DNA of 64,000 bases from Paracoccaceae bacterium (lineage in GTDB: Bacteria; Pseudomonadota; Alphaproteobacteria; Rhodobacterales; Rhodobacteraceae): the NCBI GenBank assembly GCA_026417295.1, contig JAOADN010000003.1, forward strand, positions 1 through 64,000, written 5' to 3'. Below, piece by piece: positions 45,596-55,363 of this stretch (positions are counted from its first letter, which is position 1; the number at the start of each line of letters is the position of its first letter). The notes below the pieces were generated by a model. It had not been told where the DNA came from. It was given only the letters and a program-made list of their open reading frames with translations, and ran no database searches. Made by a program: the position numbers and the translations under genes.

Positions 45596-46165
45596 TCAGG
45601 GTTCGACGCGGACCCAGACGCCCTCGACCATGACGGTCGCGGGCTTGCCGCAGTGGAAGAGGTAGTAGGTCACGACGGTCCCGGGCCGCCGCATGATCCC
45701 GGGGCGGCCCGTCAGGTCGCGGGCGGAGCGGAACTCCTGGCGGAACTGCAGGTCGTTGGTGGCGACCACCTGATGCGGCGAGACCACGAGCTCGTTCTTC
45801 GGCCGCTCCTGGCCCAGCGCCCCGGCGGCGATGCAGACCGGATGGGCATCGGGCCTGCCGTGCAGGAAGCCCTCGTCGAGGTTGAGCCGGTCGATCCACT
45901 GGACGGTCACATAGCTGCCGTCGGGCGTGCGCAGCGGGTCGCGCAGCCGCAGCGCCTTGATCGGCAGCTCGCCGAAGGAGGTCATGACGCGGGCATCGCC
46001 GGAGAAGCCCGCGAAGGTCCAGGGTTCGGCGCCGTCGCGATCGGCCGGGCGCCGCATCGGCGCGGCCGCGGGCGCCGCCGGCGCCACCGTGGCGGGCGCC
46101 GCGGCGCCGGCCTGGAGTTCGCGGCTGATCGCCGCGCCGAGCGAAAGCAACTGCTCGAGATTCAT
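45596..46165 (-). CDS. Hint-domain protein, nucleophile missing
   Basis: Protein of 189 residues. After an Ala/Pro-rich linker (about 20-45) a hedgehog/intein-type Hint domain begins: GDARVMTSFGELPIKALRLRDPLRTPDGS, VQWIDR, HPVCIAAGAL and VSPHQVV are its usual segments. Family members in Rhodobacterales normally start the domain with a CFxxGT-like motif. Here the residues are GFSGDAR, so the self-splicing cysteine is absent. It is unlikely to autoprocess and may be a structural or binding relic. Single gene with a long AT-richer upstream region. Confidence 0.8.
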   Translation of the reverse strand: MNLEQLLSLGAAISRELQAGAAAPATVAPAAPAAAPMRRPADRDGAEPWTFAGFSGDARVMTSFGELPIKALRLRDPLRTPDGSYVTVQWIDRLNLDEGFLHGRPDAHPVCIAAGALGQERPKNELVVSPHQVVATNDLQFRQEFRSARDLTGRPGIMRRPGTVVTYYLFHCGKPATVMVEGVWVRVEP

Positions 46166-46615
46166 TCGCACCACCCGTTCCACGGAGCGGTCCGTGCGCG
46201 GGGCGACATGCCGGGGCCCAGCTGCAAACTGCCCCGGCATGCCTTCACCCACACCGAACACCACCGGCCTGTGCCGGCAACTCCATCACCTTCTACACCA
46301 ACACAACTCGTTACCCTCGCCCCCGGAACCACCAGCATTCCGGTTGCGATGAACCCGATAGGCATTCCGATTGCGGCAGCTTTAAGTCGGCCCTTGCCAC
46401 AATTCCGCCACAGTCGCCCCAGGGCCATTTTCGCCCGAAAACGGCGAAAAGCCCGAATTCTTAACGATTTTTTTGAGCCGGAAACAAACTGCCCGAAAGG
46501 ACTTGTCCAAAAGTTAGTTTTCGGACCGTTCAACAAGGAACTGTTCTCGATCGGCGGAAGACCATTAAGGACCCGGAGGGGAAGGCCCCGTCCGGCCGGG
46601 CCGGCGCGAGGATCG
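46166..46615. other. 450-bp AT-richer intergenic region
   Basis: No convincing gene. The segment from about 46380 to 46570 is clearly less GC-rich than the rest of the window. It holds an 8-bp inverted repeat (TTTTCGCC at 46428-46435, GGCGAAAA at 46443-46450), a run of seven T (46468-46474), and scattered TTAA words including TTAACGAT at 46461-46468 that loosely resemble CtrA half-sites. It probably carries the Hint-gene promoter and the 3' end of the hydrogenase transcript. Confidence 0.5.
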
Positions 46616-47161
46616 TCAGCGCTCCGGAAACAGACTGTTTTGATGCGAATTTTCGGAAAAGACGCCCTGTTCCGGCCGCCGCGGGCCGGCATCGGGCGGG
46701 GCTGTGGCCCCGGCGAGCCAGGGGACGGCGAAGTCCAGCGCGGCCGCGAGGTTGCGCCGGGCGGCGGGGCTGAGCCCCTCGTCCAGCCTGTCGAAGGCGG
46801 TCCCCGCGATGGCGAGGATCCAGGCCTCGGGCCGGCGGCCGAACAGGAGCCCCGCGAGGGCGAGCACGGCGCCCGGCGTCAGGCGGTGGCTGTCCAGCCC
46901 GGCCCCGTCATCCGCGGCCACGGGCATGAGGCGGAAGGGAACCTCAAGTCCGGTCATCGCGTCGGCGAAGAGGACGCGGCCGAAGGGGACGAGGAGCGCG
47001 GCATGTTCGACGGTGAGCTGGTAGTCGATCTCGACCGCGACCCCGGGCAACCCGAGCGCGGCGATGCCCCCGGCCAGGGCGGGGCCGAGCCCGTCGTCGC
47101 CGCGGCCGGGATTGCCGTAGCCGATGACGAGGGTTCCGGCGGGCGGCGGGGCGCCGGTCAC
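46616..47161 (-). CDS. hoxW: Hydrogenase maturation endopeptidase (HoxW-like)
   Basis: Nickel-dependent maturation protease of 181 residues. The family motif GYGNPGRGDDGLG (about 14-26), a DAMTG segment near 69 and SHRLTPGAVL near 92 supply the acidic and histidine nickel ligands. It should cut the C-terminal extension from HoxH after nickel insertion. GTG start overlaps the hoxH stop (GTGA). The C-terminal tail beyond about residue 155 is lower in GC and poorly conserved-looking. Last gene of the hox operon here; no hyp assembly genes are in the window. Confidence 0.88.
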   Translation of the reverse strand: MTGAPPPAGTLVIGYGNPGRGDDGLGPALAGGIAALGLPGVAVEIDYQLTVEHAALLVPFGRVLFADAMTGLEVPFRLMPVAADDGAGLDSHRLTPGAVLALAGLLFGRRPEAWILAIAGTAFDRLDEGLSPAARRNLAAALDFAVPWLAGATAPPDAGPRRPEQGVFSENSHQNSLFPER

Positions 47162-48600
47162 GGCCCCTTCTCGGCGCTGGCGAGGAGCCGCGACTGGCTG
47201 TCCCGGACCTCGATGCGCAGCGGCATCTGCCCGAGCGCGTGGGTGGCGCAGGACAGGCAGGGGTCGTAGGCGCGGATCGCCACCTCGACATGGTTCAGCA
47301 TGCCCTCGGTGATCGTCGGGCGGCCGGAGAGGTGGGTCGTCGCGACATCGCGCACGGAACGGTTCATCGCCTCGTTGTTGTGGGTCGTCGAGACGATGAG
47401 GTTGCAGAAGGTGACCTGGTCGTTCTCGTCCACCCGGTAGTGGTGGATGAGGTTGCCGCGCGGCGCCTCGATCACGCCGATCCCCTCGGGCCGGCGGTCG
47501 CCCCTGGCCACGAGGTCCGTGCCCTGGAGATCGGGGTCGTGCAGGAGCTCGCGGATCCGCTCGACGCAATGGACGACCTCGATCATGCGCGCCCAGTGGC
47601 TGGTGAGCGGGCTCTGGCCGAGGCCACCCCCGGAGGCAGCGCGCAGGGCGGCATGGGCGGCGCCGGCAAGCGGGGTGTCGATGCGGCTGGCGCAGTTCAT
47701 CCGGGACAGCGGCCCGACGCGATACCAGCCCGACTCGGGCCCGAGGTCGCGCAGGAAGGGAAACTTCATGTAGGACCAGCTGCGCACGTCCTCGACCAGG
47801 ACCTTGTGGTAGTCCTCGACCGCGAGCATGTCGAGGATCGGCGCCCCGCCGGCGTCGATCACGCGCAGGCGGCCGTCGTAGAGGTCGAGCGCCCCGTCGC
47901 CCTGGCGCACCAGCGCGAGGTGGTTGGACGGGAAGCTGCCGAAGCGCAGGACATGGGCGGCATTGTCCTCGACATAGGCGCGGGCCAGGGCGAGTGCGTC
48001 CGCGGCCCAGTCGAGCATCCGGTCGACCTGCACGAGCAGCCGGTCGCGCGTGGCGATGTCGAGGTTGCGGTTGATGCCGCCGGGGATGGCGCCGGTGCCG
48101 TGGATCTTCTTGCCGGCCGTGGCCTCGATGATCTCCTGCCCGAACTTGCGCATCATGACGGCGCGGAGGCCCATCTCGGGCCTTTCGCGGATGACCTCGA
48201 AGATGTTGCGCCGTCCGGCCGGGGCGTCGAAGCCGAAGAGCAGGTCGGGGGCGCAGAGGTGGAAGAAGTGCAGCACATGGCTCTGCATCACCTGGCCGTA
48301 ATGCATGAGGCGGCGCATCTTCTCGGCGGTGGGGGGCAGGATGTCGACGCCGACGATCCGGTCCATCGCCTTGGCGGCGGCGAGGTGGTGGCTGACCGGG
48401 CAGATGCCGCAGAGCCTCTGGACGATGACGGGCACCTCCCACAGCAGCCGGCCGCGGATGAAGCGTTCGAAGCCGCGGAACTCGACGATGTGCAGGCGCG
48501 CCTCCTCGACCTCGCCGCGGGCGTCGAGATGGATCGTCACCTTGCCGTGGCCCTCGACGCGGGTGACGGGCGAGATCTCGATCAGCCGGGGGTCCGCCAT
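47158..48600 (-). CDS. hoxH: NAD-reducing [NiFe] hydrogenase large subunit
   Basis: Catalytic subunit of 480 residues of the soluble hydrogenase. The N-terminal nickel motif is RLCGICPVSHH (62-72, Cys64 and Cys67) and the C-terminal motif DPCLSCATH (446-454, Cys448 and Cys451). After His454 a 26-residue extension starting ALGQMPL remains, the part removed on maturation. HoxH is cytoplasmic and pairs with HoxY. It lies 12 bp after hoxY and overlaps the protease gene. Confidence 0.97.
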   Translation of the reverse strand: MADPRLIEISPVTRVEGHGKVTIHLDARGEVEEARLHIVEFRGFERFIRGRLLWEVPVIVQRLCGICPVSHHLAAAKAMDRIVGVDILPPTAEKMRRLMHYGQVMQSHVLHFFHLCAPDLLFGFDAPAGRRNIFEVIRERPEMGLRAVMMRKFGQEIIEATAGKKIHGTGAIPGGINRNLDIATRDRLLVQVDRMLDWAADALALARAYVEDNAAHVLRFGSFPSNHLALVRQGDGALDLYDGRLRVIDAGGAPILDMLAVEDYHKVLVEDVRSWSYMKFPFLRDLGPESGWYRVGPLSRMNCASRIDTPLAGAAHAALRAASGGGLGQSPLTSHWARMIEVVHCVERIRELLHDPDLQGTDLVARGDRRPEGIGVIEAPRGNLIHHYRVDENDQVTFCNLIVSTTHNNEAMNRSVRDVATTHLSGRPTITEGMLNHVEVAIRAYDPCLSCATHALGQMPLRIEVRDSQSRLLASAEKGP

Positions 48601-48612
48601 GCCGTCCTTCCG

Positions 48613-49182
48613 TCAGTCGAAGCGCAGCGCCTCGCGCCGGAACCCGCTGAAGGTGCCGTCGAGAAGGGCCGTGAGGGTTGAGAAGATGATGTCGCCCGAG
48701 GGCGCGCAGCCGGGGATCTGGACGTCGATGTCGACGATCTCGGAACAGGGATAGACGCGGTCGAGCAGCAGCGGCAGGACCGGGTCGTTGGGGATGTGGC
48801 GCGTCATGTTGCGCAGGTAGGGGCCGGTGAGGTAGGCCTCCTCGAGGCAGTCGCGCAGCGGCGCCGCCGAATGCATGATCGCGTTGCGCATCGCCGGCAG
48901 CCCGCCCATGATGGCGCACTGGCCGAGGGCGACGAGGATGTCGCAGTTCCTGCGGAACTCGATCAGGACCTCGACATTCTCCTCGTTGCAGCAGCCGCCC
49001 TCGATGATGCCGATGTCGCAGCGCCGCGTGAAGGTCTTGATGTCGGTCAGGGGCGAGCGGTCGAACTCGACCCGCTCCATCAGCGCGATCAGCCGTTCGT
49101 CGATGTCGAGGATCGCCATGTGGCAGCCGAAGCAGCCGGCGAGCGAGACGGTGGCGACGCGGGCCCTGCGCGCTTCGTTCAT
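48613..49182 (-). CDS. hoxY: NAD-reducing [NiFe] hydrogenase small subunit
   Basis: Short small subunit of 189 residues, carrying only the proximal [4Fe-4S] cluster. Likely ligands are Cys17 and Cys20 (GCFGC), Cys89 (GQCA) and Cys159 (PGCAPSGD). There is no Tat signal, consistent with a cytoplasmic enzyme. It moves electrons from the HoxH active site to HoxU. Its start overlaps the hoxU stop by four bases (ATGA). Group 3d hydrogenase by gene order and length. Confidence 0.97.
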   Translation of the reverse strand: MNEARRARVATVSLAGCFGCHMAILDIDERLIALMERVEFDRSPLTDIKTFTRRCDIGIIEGGCCNEENVEVLIEFRRNCDILVALGQCAIMGGLPAMRNAIMHSAAPLRDCLEEAYLTGPYLRNMTRHIPNDPVLPLLLDRVYPCSEIVDIDVQIPGCAPSGDIIFSTLTALLDGTFSGFRREALRFD

Positions 49183-49895
49183 CGCTTCTTGCCCTCGATC
49201 TCGCTGCCGATCAGCCCGTGGTCGAAGCGCCGCGACCCGATCGGCACGGCGAAGCCCTCGCGCTTGCGGATGATGCAGCCGACGGGGCAGACCTCGGGGG
49301 ACATGGCGTGGTCGGTGATGGCGGCGTCGGTCGCGGCAAGGTTGGCGCCGTTGACGGCGACGCGGCGGTGGATGCCGCGCCCGACATAGCCGAACACGCC
49401 CTTGCCGTCGACGTCCTGGGAGGCGCGGATGCAGCGCCCGCAGGAGATGCAGCGGTTGGTGTCGAGCGCGATGTCGGGGTGCGAGGCATCGAGCGGGCGG
49501 CAGGGCTCGAGCCAGGGGAAGCGCGTGGGTGCGGTCATGTCCAGCCGGTAGGCCATGGCCTGAAGCTCGCAGTTGCCGCTCTTCTCGCAGATCGGGCAGA
49601 GGTGGTTGCCTTCGTGGAACAGCATCTCGACGAGGTCGCGGCGCACCTTGTTGCGCGCCTCGGTGTCGTTCTCGACCTCGAGCCCCGGCTCGGCCGGCTG
49701 GGTGCAGGCCGCCACGCTGCGGCCGCCGGTCCTGACGGTGCAGACCCGGCAGCCGCCCTGGTGGCGCAGGCCCTCGTGGTCGCAGAGCCGCGGGATGTAG
49801 ATGCCGGCGGCATCCGCGGCCTCCATGATCGTCTGGCCGGGCCGCGCGTCGACCTCGACGCCGTCGATGCGGAACACGAAGGCGGCGTCGGTCAT
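49179..49895 (-). CDS. hoxU: NAD-reducing hydrogenase diaphorase subunit, Fe-S relay
   Basis: Ferredoxin-like subunit of 238 residues, similar to the N-terminus of NuoG. [2Fe-2S] ligands are Cys38, Cys49, Cys52 and Cys64; the His98-Cys100-Cys103-Cys109 group (HLCPICEKSGNC) is a His/Cys [4Fe-4S] site; a further cluster uses Cys149, Cys152, Cys155 and Cys203 or Cys207. It wires HoxY to the HoxF flavin. Overlaps hoxF and hoxY through ATGA junctions. Confidence 0.97.
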   Translation of the reverse strand: MTDAAFVFRIDGVEVDARPGQTIMEAADAAGIYIPRLCDHEGLRHQGGCRVCTVRTGGRSVAACTQPAEPGLEVENDTEARNKVRRDLVEMLFHEGNHLCPICEKSGNCELQAMAYRLDMTAPTRFPWLEPCRPLDASHPDIALDTNRCISCGRCIRASQDVDGKGVFGYVGRGIHRRVAVNGANLAATDAAITDHAMSPEVCPVGCIIRKREGFAVPIGSRRFDHGLIGSEIEGKKR

Positions 49896-51712
49896 TCGCT
49901 GAAATCCCTGTCGAAGATGTAGGACCTGCGCCCGGCGATCCGGCGCGCGCCCTCGATGGCCGCCTGGATCGAGAAGGTCGCCTTCAGGCCGTCCCGGCGG
50001 GGCCTTGCAAGCGCCGAATAGACGAGGGGGAAGTGCTGCAGGCTGGAGAGGACCGGATTGGGCGAGGTCATGCCGAGGCCGCAGCGGCTGGTCTCGGCGA
50101 TCGTCGCGGAGAGGTCGCGGAGGTAGGCGATGTCGCCCTCGTCGGCGAGGCCCGCGCGGAATTTCGCGATGGCCTTCCGGAGGAACACGTTGCCGACCCG
50201 GCAGGGGGTGCAGTAGCCGCAGCTCTCGTGCACGAAGAAGGAGAGGTAGTATTCGACGATCTCGAGGATGTTGCGCCGGGCGCCGAAGGCGATCACCGCG
50301 CCGCCGGTCGACAGGTCGTCGAAGGCGAGGCGGCGGCCGAAGTCCTCGCGGCCGACAAGGGTGCCGCTCGGTCCGCCGACCTGGACCGCCGCGGCCCCGG
50401 CCGCGCCGGCCCGTTCGAGCAGGTCGGCGAGCGGCAGGCCGGCCGGCAGTTCGTAGACCCCGGGCAGGTCGCAGTCGCCGGAGACGGAGTAGAGCTTCGT
50501 GCCCGGGCTGCCGCCGGTGCCCGCCGCGCGGAAGCGGTCGGCGCCGATGTCGAGGATGCGCGCCGCGTGGGCGAAGGTCTCGACGTTGTTGACCACCGTC
50601 GGCTGCCCGAGATAGCCGCGCGTCACGGGGAAGGGGGGGCGGGTCCTTGGTTCACCCGGCAGACCCTCGCAGGAACTGATGAGCGCGCCCTCCTCGCCGC
50701 AGACATAGGCGCCGGCGCCCATCTGGATGCGGATGTCGAAGTCGCCGCCCAGCGTGCCGGCGGCACGGCGCCCCGCGAGGACGGCCTCGAGATGCTCGCG
50801 CAGGAAGGCGTATTCGCCGCGCAGGTAGAGGATGCCTTCGCGCGCGCCGATGGCCCGGGCCGCGATCGTCATCCCCTCGACGACGAGGTCGGGGCGTTCG
50901 GTCAGCAGCACCCGGTCCTTGAAGGTGCCGGGTTCGCCCTCGTCCGCGTTGCAGATGACGAAGCGGCGTTCGGCGGGGGTGCCGGCCGCAATGCGCCACT
51001 TGCGCCCGGTGGCGAAGCCCGCGCCGCCGCAGCCGCGCAGGCCGCTGGCCTCGATCACGTCGATGATGGCAGCGGGGGCGAGGGCAAGGGCGGCGCGCAG
51101 CCCCGCATCCCGGGGCACCGGGCCGAGCAGGATGTCGCCGGCCACGCGGATGTTGCTGTCGGCCTGGCGGCGGACGCGGTCGGCCGGGGCGAGGCCGTCG
51201 AAACCGGGCACCACCGCCTCGCCTGGCGGCACGCCCCGGAGCAGGGCCTGCGCGATGGCGGTGGCGCGCGCGGGCGTCAGGCGGGTGGCCACGACATCGT
51301 TGATCATTGCTGCGGGGGCCTGGTCGCACAGGCCGATGCAGGGCGTGAAGTCCAGCGAGAAGGCGCCGTCCGCGGAGGTCTGGCCGACCGCCACGCCGAG
51401 CGTCCCGGCGAAGGCGGCGGCGACCTTCTCGAGGCCGGCGAAGCGGTCGACGATGTCGTCGCAGAGCCGGATCGTCACGCGCCCCTTCGGCACGAGCGAC
51501 AGGAAGCTGTAGAAACTGGCCACGCCCTCGACGGCGATTCGCGTCATCCCGAGGGCGGCGGCCACGGCCTCCATCGCGGCGGGAGATATCCAGCGGCGGT
51601 CCTGCTGGATCGCGAGAAGGATGTCGAGCAGGCGGTGCCTGTCGTTGCCGAAGCCCGCGCAGATGGCCGCGATGCCGCTGTCGGCCTTGTCCGGGGAGCT
51701 TGGTGTCGTCAT
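49892..51712 (-). CDS. hoxF: NAD-reducing hydrogenase diaphorase subunit, HoxE-HoxF type
   Basis: Protein of 606 residues joining a NuoE/HoxE-like domain (about 1-160) to a NuoF-like domain, as in Cupriavidus HoxF. The NADH/FMN loop GLRGCGGAGFATGRKW is at 224-239, NADEGEPGTFKDR near 255-267, and the [4Fe-4S] ligands are Cys498, Cys501, Cys504 and Cys544. In the HoxE part only Cys84, Cys125 and Cys129 remain of the usual four, so that cluster is probably absent. It reduces NAD+ with H2-derived electrons, or the reverse. ATG 51712 is chosen because the family sequence begins there. First gene of hoxFUYHW. Confidence 0.96.
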   Translation of the reverse strand: MTTPSSPDKADSGIAAICAGFGNDRHRLLDILLAIQQDRRWISPAAMEAVAAALGMTRIAVEGVASFYSFLSLVPKGRVTIRLCDDIVDRFAGLEKVAAAFAGTLGVAVGQTSADGAFSLDFTPCIGLCDQAPAAMINDVVATRLTPARATAIAQALLRGVPPGEAVVPGFDGLAPADRVRRQADSNIRVAGDILLGPVPRDAGLRAALALAPAAIIDVIEASGLRGCGGAGFATGRKWRIAAGTPAERRFVICNADEGEPGTFKDRVLLTERPDLVVEGMTIAARAIGAREGILYLRGEYAFLREHLEAVLAGRRAAGTLGGDFDIRIQMGAGAYVCGEEGALISSCEGLPGEPRTRPPFPVTRGYLGQPTVVNNVETFAHAARILDIGADRFRAAGTGGSPGTKLYSVSGDCDLPGVYELPAGLPLADLLERAGAAGAAAVQVGGPSGTLVGREDFGRRLAFDDLSTGGAVIAFGARRNILEIVEYYLSFFVHESCGYCTPCRVGNVFLRKAIAKFRAGLADEGDIAYLRDLSATIAETSRCGLGMTSPNPVLSSLQHFPLVYSALARPRRDGLKATFSIQAAIEGARRIAGRRSYIFDRDFSE

Positions 51713-51882
51713 CCCTGCCAGCCCTCGCTGCGGTCCGGGGCGCGCGCGCCTGCACGCCCTTGCGGCAGAGCGCGACTCGGTCGACCGCAGACTGCCGGAC
51801 GCGCCCGGGAACAGCTTTGACCTGACCCCGCCCGCAGGCAAGCCGTTTGATCGCGTCGCGACGCCGCCGGATGCTGCGCGAG

Positions 51883-52680
51883 CTAGCCGAGCGCCTTGCG
51901 GAAGGCCGCGAGTTCCTTTGCGTCGATCGACAGGATTTCGCTTTCGGCCGGGAAGGCCCCGGAGGCGACGTCGGCCACATATTCGCGGAAGGCGGCGATG
52001 CGTTCCTTCTGCATGCGGTCCTCCATCTTCGCGAGGTTGCGGTAGACGCGGGCGTGGCGCGGGATGTGCCCGCGATTGGTGCCGAGGACATCGGTGGCGA
52101 AGAGATACTGGCAGTCGCAGCCCGCACCCGCACCCATCGACACCATGAAGAGGTGCGTCCGCCGCGAGATCTCGGCGGCGACCTCGGCGGGGACGACCTC
52201 GATCTCGGCCCCGAAGGCGCCGGCGGACTCGTAGGCCTTGACCGCGTTCCAGACCGAGAGCGCGCTCTCGGCCGTCTTGCCGACGGCCCTGAAGCCGCCG
52301 GTCCAGGTGGCGCGCGAGGGGATCAGCCCGACATGACCGATGACGGGCACGTTCTCGCGCGCCAGCGCCTCGACGGTGGCGTAGGAGGCCGAGCAGTAGA
52401 CGGCATCGGCCCCGGCCCTGAGCATGGCGAAGGCCCAGCGCACGAAGTCGTCGGCGGTGCCGAGTTCGAAGAAATTCACGCCGGGCACGGCGAAGACGCC
52501 GGGCGCCACGTCGCGGAAGCGCGGATCGGTCATCATCGCGGGCGGGACCGAGACGCTGTCGATGCCCGCGGCCTCGGCGGCGGCGAGTTCCTGCCAGGTC
52601 TCGACCCGCATCATCGTGAGCTGCCGCACGCCCTTGAGCGCGCGGATGTCCGCGACCGTCAGCCTTCTGCGTGTCGCCAT
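51883..52680 (-). CDS. PanB-fold protein lacking PanB metal ligands
   Basis: Protein of 265 residues aligning over its length with 3-methyl-2-oxobutanoate hydroxymethyltransferase. GHVGLIPSRATWTGGFRAVGK (115-135), EIEVVPAEVAAEI (159-171) and GTNRGHIPRHA (200-210) are shared. By hand alignment the E. coli metal ligands Asp45, Asp84 and Glu114 and Lys112 are not conserved (the GDSLG segment reads VPPAM, VKIEGG reads VYCSAS), while the catalytic Glu181 matches Glu161. A GCDC motif (187-190) is new. It is unlikely to make ketopantoate. It lies 29 bp downstream of the Rieske gene in a moc-like operon, with AGGGAGGGGG before the ATG. Confidence 0.8.
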   Translation of the reverse strand: MATRRRLTVADIRALKGVRQLTMMRVETWQELAAAEAAGIDSVSVPPAMMTDPRFRDVAPGVFAVPGVNFFELGTADDFVRWAFAMLRAGADAVYCSASYATVEALARENVPVIGHVGLIPSRATWTGGFRAVGKTAESALSVWNAVKAYESAGAFGAEIEVVPAEVAAEISRRTHLFMVSMGAGAGCDCQYLFATDVLGTNRGHIPRHARVYRNLAKMEDRMQKERIAAFREYVADVASGAFPAESEILSIDAKELAAFRKALG

Positions 52681-52709
52681 TCGTCCCCCCTCCCTGTCCT
52701 GACCCGGCC

Positions 52710-53024
52710 TCAGCCGAGGTCGATCATCACCGTGCCGTCCTCGACCTTCACGGGATAGGTCCTGAGGTTGACGCAGACGGGGGCGCGCATCGCCTCGCCC
52801 GTGCGGTAGTCGAACTGCCCGTTGTGCTTGGGGCATTCGATCACGTAGTCCATGACCAGCCCGCCGGCGAGGTGGACATGCTCGTGCGTGCACAGCCCGT
52901 CGGTGGCGAAGAATTCCCCGTCCGGCGAATGGTAGATGGCGAAGGTCCGGCCGCCGTGGTCCCAGCGCATCACGTCCTCTTCGTCAATCTCGGCGGTCGG
53001 GCAGACGGCTGTCCAGTTGGCCAC
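52710..53024 (-). CDS. Rieske-type [2Fe-2S] ferredoxin, MocE-like
   Basis: Small soluble Rieske protein of 104 residues. Cluster ligands are Cys45 and His47 (CTHEHVHLAGG) and Cys64 and His67 (CPKHNGQF). It resembles MocE and the ferredoxins of aromatic-ring oxygenases, and should feed electrons to the adjacent membrane oxygenase. The GTG start (53022-53024) has GGAGGAG upstream. No ferredoxin reductase gene (mocF type) is next to it, so electrons must come from elsewhere. 28 bp after the oxygenase gene. Confidence 0.93.
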   Translation of the reverse strand: MANWTAVCPTAEIDEEDVMRWDHGGRTFAIYHSPDGEFFATDGLCTHEHVHLAGGLVMDYVIECPKHNGQFDYRTGEAMRAPVCVNLRTYPVKVEDGTVMIDLG

Positions 53025-53052
53025 GTGGGGTCTCCTCCGGTGCGTGCCGGCG

Positions 53053-54162
53053 CTACTGCGCCGGCGTCAGTTCGACATGGGCGCCGTGTTCGGCATGCTT
53101 GCCCTTGGGCGCGGGGGTCCATTCCGTGCCCGGTGGCAGTTCTGGCACGAGGCACCAGCGCGGTTCGCGGGCCTGGCGCAGCAGGGCGGGGATGATCTCG
53201 GCATAGGCCGCGAACATGTTCGCCTTGGGCTTGGGGAAGTAGGGCTTGCACTCCTCGTGCAGGGCGGGAAGCGCGTGGTATGGAACCATCGGGAACATGT
53301 GGTGTTCGACGTGGTAGTTCATGTTCCAGTAGATGAAGCGCAGGACCGGGTTCATGTAGACGGTGCGGCTGTTCAGCCGGTGGTCGAGCGCGTCCTCGGC
53401 CAGCCCGCCATGCTGGGTGACCCCGGTCAGGACGTGGACCCAGGCGCCGTACATCGTGGGCAGGGGGCCGAACAGCAGCACGGGAAGCCAGGACTGCGCG
53501 AGGACCGCCCAGAGGATGATCGCGGCATGGATGACCAGCCAGATGCGCGCGGTGCGGATGACGCCGGGGCGCTCGTTCTCGGGGATGTAGGTCTTCTGTT
53601 CCTCGGGGATCGTGCCGCCGGCATAGGTGAACATCAGCCGGATGGCCCCCCAGGTCTGCGGGATGCCGAGGAACAGGGCGATCGTGCGGATGATCCAGGT
53701 CGGGCGCATGATCGCGATCTCGGGATCGCGGCCGACGATGATCGTGTCGGTGTGGTGGCGCGCATGGCTCCAGCGCCAGGCGTTGGGGTTGCGCATGATC
53801 ATGAAGCAGGCGATCTGGTAGACCACGTCGTTCATCCAGCGCGTCTTGAAGGCCGTGCCGTGGCCGCATTCGTGCCAGCGCGAATCGCTCGAAGAGCCGT
53901 AGAGCACGCCGTAGGCCATGAAGAACGGGACCGACCACCAGGAGGGATAGAGCCAGGCCGCGAGGCCCCCGGTGACGACGAAGGCCGCGAGCCAGATGAG
54001 CGTGTCGCGGATCGCCGGCTGGTCGGACCTCTGCATCAGCTCCTTCATGCGCTTGCGCGGGATCGGCGCCTGGTACCATTCGGCATTGGCAAGGCCGAGT
54101 TCGACGGCGCGCACGGCCTCGGGGCCGGTCAGGCTGTAGTCGCGGTGGTAGAGATGGGTCAT
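53053..54162 (-). CDS. Membrane di-iron oxygenase/desaturase, MocD-like
   Basis: Integral membrane protein of 369 residues in the fatty-acid desaturase/alkane hydroxylase superfamily. Histidine boxes are HECGH (97-101), HARHH (133-137) and HVEHH (284-288), with a further His251 in TQHGG. Several hydrophobic segments lie at about 55-90 and 205-245. Pairing with a MocE-like Rieske protein recalls mocDE of rhizobial rhizopine catabolism, where an O-demethylation is proposed. Substrate unknown. ATG 54162 is chosen because a GGGAGGGGG site precedes it and the longer reading adds unrelated sequence. Confidence 0.9.
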   Translation of the reverse strand: MTHLYHRDYSLTGPEAVRAVELGLANAEWYQAPIPRKRMKELMQRSDQPAIRDTLIWLAAFVVTGGLAAWLYPSWWSVPFFMAYGVLYGSSSDSRWHECGHGTAFKTRWMNDVVYQIACFMIMRNPNAWRWSHARHHTDTIIVGRDPEIAIMRPTWIIRTIALFLGIPQTWGAIRLMFTYAGGTIPEEQKTYIPENERPGVIRTARIWLVIHAAIILWAVLAQSWLPVLLFGPLPTMYGAWVHVLTGVTQHGGLAEDALDHRLNSRTVYMNPVLRFIYWNMNYHVEHHMFPMVPYHALPALHEECKPYFPKPKANMFAAYAEIIPALLRQAREPRWCLVPELPPGTEWTPAPKGKHAEHGAHVELTPAQ

Positions 54163-54190
54163 GGGGCAACCCCCTCCCGGGGTCGGCTTC

Positions 54191-54219
54191 GTGTTACCGA
54201 ACGAAAATTCCAAAGTCAA
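54191..54219 (-). promoter_or_regulatory. Candidate sigma70 promoter for the moc-like operon
   Basis: On the minus strand TTGACT (54219-54214) and TAACAC (54196-54191) are exactly 17 bp apart, in an AT-rich island (54195-54240) between the divergent genes. The transcript would begin about 20 bp upstream of the start codon at 54162. Confidence 0.55.
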
Positions 54220-54280
54220 GAAAACAGAATTTGCATTCCACTCGCCCGGCACCTGGGCTGAGCATAGGGGAGGCGGCAGG

Positions 54281-55363
54281 ATGGACTCAACCATGCTGGC
54301 GGCGGAGGGAATAGAGGTCGCCTTCGAGGCGGCCTGCGGCTTCGTTGCGGCGATGACGGTCACCGACGGGGACCGCAGGATCGGGATGCTGCACCGCGCG
54401 CCCTGGGCCGGCACGGACGAGGCCATGCCGCCGGACGCCGCGGCACATCTGCGGGGCCTGAAGGGCGACTTCTTCTGCGCGCCCTTCGCGGCCCGGTCCG
54501 CGGACGGGTCGGACTTTCACGGCTGGCCGGCCAACGGGCACTGGACCTCTGTGCCGGGCGGTTCGGCGGGCTGCCGCCGCTGGGTGCTTGACCATGCGGT
54601 CGAGGGCGCGACCCTGGTCAAGGAACTGTCGGTCGCGGACGGGCAGCCCTTCCTCTACCAGCGCCACGTCTTCCTCGGGGGGCGGGGGGACCTGCCGGTA
54701 GCCAATCACGCGATGATCACGCTGCCGGAGGGCGGGCACCTGCGGTTCTCGCCCAAGCGCTGGTTCGAGACGCCGGCCACACCGCTGGAGACGGACCCCG
54801 CGCGCGGGCGTTCCCGCCTGCGCCCGGCGACGCGCGCGACGGACCCGCAGGCCTTTCCGGCGGCCGGCGGCGGCACGCTGGACCTGACGCGTTATCCCTG
54901 GGCCGGGCGCGACGAGGATTTCGTTGCCGCGATCGAGGCCGAAGGTTCGCCGCTGGGCTGGACGGCGGTCAGCCGCACGGGACGGGGCGACCTGTTCCTG
55001 TCCCTGCGCGACCCCCGCGCCCTGCCGATGACCATGCTGTGGCATTCCAACGGCGGGCGCGACTATCCACCGTGGAACGGCCGGCACATCGCCTGTCTCG
55101 GGGTCGAGGAGGGGGCGGCGCTGCACGTGCTGGGCCAGTCAGCGCGCGAGACCCCCGACCCGCTGACGGCAGGCGGAATGGCGGCCTGCCTGACGCTGGA
55201 TCCGGAGGGGACGGCGGAGCTGCGCCATGTCCTGGGCATGATCGCATGGCCGAGCGGGGAACCGGTGGCTTCGGTCGTGCTGTCGGGGGACGTGCTGGCG
55301 GTGACGGGCGAGGGCGGCGCAAGGCGCGACCTGCCGATCCGCGGACGGTTCCTGTTTCCCTGA
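54281..55363 (+). CDS. Mutarotase-like protein of unknown function
   Basis: Predicted soluble beta-rich protein of 360 residues without a signal peptide. Several patches recall galactose-mutarotase-superfamily proteins (GDFFCAPFAA, HGWPANGHW, a late LWHSNGGRDYPPWNGRHIACLGVE segment), where His and Glu/Asp residues bind a carbohydrate ring. I do not recognise an exact family. GGGGAGG eight bases upstream fixes the start at 54281. It is divergent from the MocDE-like operon with a shared 118-bp promoter region, so joint regulation and a sugar- or cyclitol-like substrate are possible. Confidence 0.7.
   Translation: MDSTMLAAEGIEVAFEAACGFVAAMTVTDGDRRIGMLHRAPWAGTDEAMPPDAAAHLRGLKGDFFCAPFAARSADGSDFHGWPANGHWTSVPGGSAGCRRWVLDHAVEGATLVKELSVADGQPFLYQRHVFLGGRGDLPVANHAMITLPEGGHLRFSPKRWFETPATPLETDPARGRSRLRPATRATDPQAFPAAGGGTLDLTRYPWAGRDEDFVAAIEAEGSPLGWTAVSRTGRGDLFLSLRDPRALPMTMLWHSNGGRDYPPWNGRHIACLGVEEGAALHVLGQSARETPDPLTAGGMAACLTLDPEGTAELRHVLGMIAWPSGEPVASVVLSGDVLAVTGEGGARRDLPIRGRFLFP

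Follow-up and report, generated by a model that had tools for sequence, protein, structure and literature searches.

A PanB-derived protein without the Mg-binding residues of ketopantoate hydroxymethyltransferase accompanies MocD-type oxygenases and is a candidate tetrahydrofolate-using formaldehyde-activating enzyme

The closest described counterparts of the gene set analyzed here are the rhizopine mocDEF genes of Rhizobium leguminosarum and Sinorhizobium meliloti, reported by Bahar et al. (1998) as cited in PMC10107442 and PMC5789663, where a MocD-type oxygenase and a MocE ferredoxin are likewise encoded in one operon. The rhizopine-inducible mocD promoter carries two 11-bp moc-boxes with 13 bp between them (PMC10107442), and in R. 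mesoamericanum root exudate induces a mocDEF-like gene set, pinitol, an O-methyl-inositol, being the exudate component of highest concentration (PMC5789663). The open-access descriptions of the operon consulted here end at mocF and include neither a PanB-like gene nor purU.

In tetrahydrofolate (THF)-dependent O-demethylation modules with folD and purU, for example those of aryl and dicamba demethylases, the methyl group passes to THF without O2. The condensation of formaldehyde with THF is usually drawn as a spontaneous reaction. He et al. 2020 (PMC7073904) found this spontaneous condensation to be very slow in vivo, considered PanB as its possible promiscuous catalyst, and left open the existence of a THF-using formaldehyde-activating enzyme; in their work, deletion of panB in Escherichia coli, where the gene is a true panB, had no effect on growth. 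PanB itself (EC 2.1.2.11) moves a one-carbon (C1) unit between 5,10-methylene-THF and a Mg-bound enolate (PMC7770189).

The stretch of DNA analyzed here, referred to as the window, comprises the first 64,000 nucleotides of contig JAOADN010000003.1 from a Paracoccaceae bacterium and contains three consecutive genes on its minus strand. The gene at 53053..54162 encodes a 369-amino-acid MocD-like membrane di-iron oxygenase of the FA_desaturase superfamily (PF00487, 6e-38), with the three His boxes HECGH97, HARHH133, and HVEHH284; it reached no equivalog threshold in the NCBIfam profile search. It is followed after 28 bp by a gene with a GTG start at 52710..53024, encoding a 104-amino-acid Rieske [2Fe-2S] ferredoxin which passes the curated cutoff of the MocE profile TIGR02377 (4e-52; 174.4 bits against 136.15) and contains the Rieske motif CTH45 ... 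CPKH64, and, after a further 29 bp, by the gene for a 265-amino-acid PanB-like protein (51883..52680), the open reading frame of which starts with ATG at 52680 and whose stop codon ends at 51883. Both the three-gene set and its MocDE-like oxygenase and ferredoxin, as read in a preliminary description of this DNA, are thus borne out. By analogy with the MocDEF literature, the oxygenase is predicted to be an O-demethylase.

The PanB-like protein shares with PanB the fold, membership of PF02548 (Pantoate_transf; 1e-36, above the gathering cutoff), the GHxGL segment, and the catalytic Glu and His, but it is without the Mg ligands, Lys112, the GDSLGM segment, and the GG loop, and its score against the panB equivalog TIGR00222 (91.5 bits) is less than half of the cutoff of 207.55. 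We aligned 67 members of the PanB-like family with 13 true PanBs, including that of E. coli, whose residues have Mg2+-binding, keto-acid-related, and catalytic roles which we take to be established by structural work on PanB. Of the Mg ligands (E. coli numbering), D45 is replaced by Pro in the window protein and is variable in the family (Asp in 9 of 67 members, lost in 58), D84 is Gly in the window protein and in 59 of the 67 relatives (Asp in 1, lost in 66), and E114 is Ser in the window protein and Ser or Ala in 54 of 67, with Glu in none. The active-site K112 is Tyr in the window protein and in 63 of 67 relatives, and Lys in none. Each of these losses holds in at least 85% of the 67 members; the G115-G116 loop after E114 is missing from 66 of them, and much of the PanB GDSLGM region is missing from the family. 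The equivalents of H136, G138, and E181, in contrast, are kept in 67/67, H116 and E161 of the window protein corresponding to E. coli H136 and E181, and the family shows an invariant set peculiar to it, which includes R56, D92, A140, E159, F194, and H209 (30 sequences, down to 34% identity). Judged from these sequences, the protein appears to be derived from PanB, without the Mg/keto-acid half of the active site and with the Glu/His half. The earlier reading of a PanB-fold protein that keeps the GHxGL and catalytic Glu segments while losing the Mg ligands and the lysine therefore extends to 67 relatives, and the metal ligands did not turn out to be conserved after all; the GCDC motif, which had also been singled out, was discarded as a catalytic motif since its second Cys is usually Ala among the relatives (GCDAQYLF).

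The AlphaFold2 model of the PanB-like protein (46 sequences, pLDDT 88) agrees with this assignment, as the structure comparison proposed with the preliminary description returned PanB chains only among its 28 best PDB matches, with large overall rmsd values; residues 120-131, part of the active site, are poorly modeled (pLDDT <50). Weaker fold matches were found to methylisocitrate lyase and dimethylmalate lyase.

Within the window's family, 48 of 199 genomes encode relatives of the PanB-like protein (E ≤1e-30); across the phylum, 19 of 398 do so, all 19 belonging to the same class. A scan of public genomes gave at least 574 stretches encoding such relatives; none was found in viral contigs. 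The trio recurs across many alphaproteobacterial genera, so that a strain-specific oddity, which the preliminary description had named as the outcome that would count against it, can be set aside. The genome of the window encodes two further PanB-like paralogues, on contigs C156 and C43, the latter situated behind a mocE at the contig end. On C156 (L080:7715-11625), genes for a LacI regulator, a PanB-like protein, a PF04116 oxygenase, and a sugar-binding protein are consecutive and give this genome a second kind of PanB-like/oxygenase pair.

According to our neighborhood analysis, PanB-like genes and membrane di-iron oxygenase genes are closely associated. Among the best 80 of the at least 574 loci, for which neighborhoods were examined, such an oxygenase is encoded on the same strand within 6 kb in 75 (mocD in 74, mocE in 72); since these are the closest relatives, the count over loci of the window's family, 47 of 60, is the fairer figure. 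In whole-genome coordinates, a PF00487-type mocD lies within 6 kb of 43 of 75 PanB-like genes, and 42 genomes contain both genes while 6 and 19 contain only one of them (Fisher P value of 7e-22, kinship among the genomes being ignored). Even divergent pairs, with about 31 to 36% identity to the window proteins, are still adjacent (genomes G045, G098, G176, and G194). At 44 of 86 MocD loci there is no PanB-like gene nearby, which implies that the PanB-like protein is not essential for demethylation; its absence from about half of these loci is compatible with an accessory trap for C1 units, comparable to Gfa for glutathione (PMC8879981), and with auxiliary roles of other kinds as well. Loci L231 to L250 are of this kind, and several of them share LacI, TIM-barrel, and ABC transporter neighbors, which makes them a natural comparison set for the contribution of the PanB-like protein. 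Recurrent neighbors of the PanB-like genes further include genes for sugar ABC transporters, LacI regulators, Gfo/Idh/MocA dehydrogenases, xylose isomerase-like TIM barrels, and DUF4432 proteins, whose relatives include a hypothetical aldose 1-epimerase of solved structure, as well as iol genes. This company points to O-methylated sugars or cyclitols as substrates, and the substrate of the window operon is probably an O-methyl sugar or a cyclitol.

The oxygenase partner is not always MocD. In 11 to 12 loci a PF04116 oxygenase takes its place, with MocE still present in most of them, and the MocD and PF04116 partner labels change five times on the tree of the PanB-like proteins, a quick search with many weak inner forks. 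A fully supported branch of the same tree separates the PanB-like proteins from true PanB. Since the PanB-like protein stays while the oxygenase family changes, it most likely serves what the oxygenases have in common, and for O-demethylases this shared product is probably formaldehyde.

The PanB-like gene is also found in rhizopine loci. The gene order mocD-mocE-mocF-PanB-like-purU occurs in Mesorhizobium huakuii, Agrobacterium, R. lentis, and Phyllobacterium, with folD annotated next after purU in M. huakuii and Agrobacterium and a folD-like open reading frame in Phyllobacterium. In the rhizopine loci of Sinorhizobium (S. meliloti), Rhizobium (R. lentis), and Phyllobacterium (L251:5034-11150, L037:7644-13739, and L039:7572-13733), where the PanB-like gene is present as it is in the window, it follows directly after mocDEF together with purU, and the sets adjoin genes for a MocR-like regulator and divergent genes for a binding protein and a Gfo/Idh/MocA protein. 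A pair of moc-boxes, 24 bp from start to start, lies just upstream of mocD in these three loci and, in two of them, also upstream of the binding-protein gene. It was absent from 3.16 Mb of other DNA scanned; as relatives of these very loci were the source of the motif, the pair marks them as moc loci and is not an independent validation of the motif. Their contiguity makes it probable that the PanB-like gene and purU are cotranscribed with the rhizopine-inducible mocDEF, and the moc operon would then be longer than the open papers describe. In the open-access literature we found no mention of a PanB homologue with mocDEF, and this operon member is apparently unreported. The preliminary description had known of no pathway with such a trio; the mocDEF context of O-methyl-inositol and sugar use is in fact known, and what seems to be unreported is its PanB-like member.

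The window itself is not deemed a rhizopine operon, as it contains no mocF, mocR, mocA, or mocB and no moc-box, whereas mocR, mocA, mocB, and the paired boxes are present in L037, L039, and L251; a different substrate is likely. Nor are purU and folD general companions of the family. They are absent from beside the PanB-like gene in most loci, PurU is not enriched in the PanB-like genomes of the window's family (11/48 versus 43/151; P = 0.58), and it was not found in the window genome, the assembly of which is 76.7% complete. The glutathione-dependent formaldehyde dehydrogenase TIGR02818 occurs in 184 of 199 family genomes and is uninformative as a discriminator; the lack of a match to it or to PurU in the window genome (G000) may only reflect the incomplete assembly.

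Divergently from mocD, on the plus strand, a conserved protein designated P0004 is encoded at 54281..55363, the start codon being assumed. It has no match in Pfam, NCBIfam, or the PDB and no profile match to DUF4432; its family alignment shows 50 to 58% identity, and its single-sequence AlphaFold2 model has a pLDDT of 34. In five loci (L086, L088, L089, L090, and L093), a relative of P0004 is encoded in one gene cluster with mocD and the PanB-like gene, which makes P0004 a probable pathway member; in L249 it accompanies mocD alone. It is possibly a sugar epimerase standing in for DUF4432. The 118 bp between the two divergent genes (54163..54280, unstranded) are assigned as their promoter region by position; they contain a 12-nucleotide imperfect inverted repeat at 54199-54210/54227-54238, and neither a moc-box pair nor a sigma-70 match was detected there. 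Downstream of the trio, also on the minus strand, lie genes of an NAD-linked [NiFe] hydrogenase (HoxF-, HoxU-, HoxY-, and HoxH-like, with a probable maturation protease; 46616-51841) and, just beyond them, a gene for a Hint_2 domain protein (45596-46225, minus strand). The hydrogenase genes do not recur as a neighbor cluster in the relatives, and their adjacency to the trio looks incidental.

We propose that the trio makes up the demethylating core of an operon through which an O-methylated sugar or cyclitol is catabolized. Following the accepted MocDEF model, MocD, receiving electrons via MocE and a reductase encoded elsewhere, would hydroxylate the methoxyl carbon, and collapse of the resulting hemiacetal would yield the alcohol and formaldehyde. 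The PanB-like protein would take up the released C1 unit, as formaldehyde or as the hydroxymethyl hemiacetal, and condense formaldehyde with THF to 5,10-methylene-THF without a metal; FolD and PurU, which several rhizobia encode in the adjacent genes, would then carry the C1 unit to formate. Both the release of formaldehyde and the choice of the PanB residues that would face the C1 unit are derived from the known biochemistry of MocDEF and PanB. With E181 and H136 kept on the C1 side, and D45, D84, E114, and K112, which serve Mg2+ binding and keto-acid enolization, lost, formation of 5,10-methylene-THF would be the simplest reaction remaining. We consider it fairly probable that the PanB-like protein handles the C1 unit in some way, as the preliminary description had suggested in terms of C1 capture or transfer and as the neighborhood supports (purU and folD, linkage to rhizopine moc genes, and oxygenase swapping). 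That it catalyzes the metal-free reaction of formaldehyde with THF is put forward as a tentative assignment, nearly as apt to hold as to fail. The proposed role would resemble those of Fae, which acts on tetrahydromethanopterin (H4MPT), and Gfa, which acts on glutathione (PMC8879981), in speeding the spontaneous condensation of formaldehyde with a carrier. The likeness is one of function only, as the fold is unrelated and the carrier differs, and neither a Fae nor a Gfa domain was found in the PanB-like protein, for which Pantoate_transf is the only Pfam match at E ≤1. With the THF-dependent O-demethylation modules the trio would share the transfer of the demethylation C1 unit to THF, with FolD and PurU downstream, but it would rely on a PanB-fold protein and on a di-iron oxygenase that needs O2.

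The C1 unit could also be handled without THF, which we regard as unlikely: a metal-free aldol reaction would add formaldehyde or the hydroxymethyl hemiacetal to another acceptor, such as a keto compound produced by the Gfo/Idh dehydrogenase of the pathway. PanB chemistry joins a hydroxymethyl group through a C-C bond, Gfo/Idh/MocA dehydrogenases are often encoded nearby, purU and folD are missing from most loci, and a THF-independent reaction with formaldehyde is cited for the PanB of Mycobacterium tuberculosis (Sugantino 2003, as cited in PMC7770189); the Mg site and the Lys for keto-substrate activation are gone, however, purU and folD point to THF where they are present, and across the loci no common acceptor pathway is evident. 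Somewhat less likely again is a lyase or rearranging enzyme of the PEP mutase/isocitrate lyase/PanB superfamily acting on the sugar or cyclitol skeleton independently of C1 units. The weaker fold matches to methylisocitrate and dimethylmalate lyases would suit it, as would the sugar enzymes encoded nearby, but those lyases are Mg enzymes while the PanB-like site is without metal ligands, and the protein is common to different oxygenase families and different sets of sugar genes, is encoded next to purU in several loci, and does not occur at about half of the MocD loci. Cleavage of a C-C bond in a new way, the other possibility raised in the preliminary description, found no support, and the lost metal ligands and the oxygenase swapping are some evidence against it.

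The conservation of the catalytic Glu and His in 67/67 members, together with the family's own invariant polar residues E159, R56, D92, and H209, suggests catalysis and so argues against a non-enzymatic role, as a binder of formaldehyde or folate or as an assembly or regulatory subunit of the oxygenase complex, which would also have to accommodate the pairing with two different oxygenase families. We give this role the same low probability as the lyase; in its favor are the loss of much of the PanB active site and the strict colocalization with the oxygenase in a protein that is dispensable in other loci. Ordinary ketopantoate hydroxymethyltransferase activity for pantothenate synthesis, the function given by automatic annotation in public records and in line with PF02548 membership, is highly improbable and was rejected on account of the equivalog score, the lost Mg ligands and Lys, and the separate, fully supported branch. 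Moreover, the window genome encodes a genuine PanB over the equivalog cutoff on contig C173, followed by an open reading frame that reads as panC, the operon partner of PanB, whereas the PanB-like gene is partnered with an oxygenase gene.

A PanB-derived family that has shed the keto-acid/Mg half of its active site, and whose genes accompany those of demethylases and, in rhizobia, also purU and folD, suggests itself as a candidate THF-using formaldehyde-activating enzyme for the metal-free condensation of formaldehyde with THF. It is conceivable, though we hold this more loosely than the assignment of the reaction itself, that the metal-free PanB paralogues are a dedicated THF-specific enzyme of this kind, serving different di-iron demethylases and overlooked as a part of the rhizopine mocDEF system. 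The PanB-derived protein is a widely conserved and apparently unreported component of MocD-type demethylation operons, and recognizing it as such would remove a probable misannotation, "3-methyl-2-oxobutanoate hydroxymethyltransferase", from hundreds of genomes. If the proposed function is true, an enzyme would exist for a reaction of formaldehyde with THF thought to be only spontaneous, the rhizopine pathway, itself used to engineer plant-microbe signaling, would have an extra step, and the toxic formaldehyde from demethylation would be caught and loaded onto folate.
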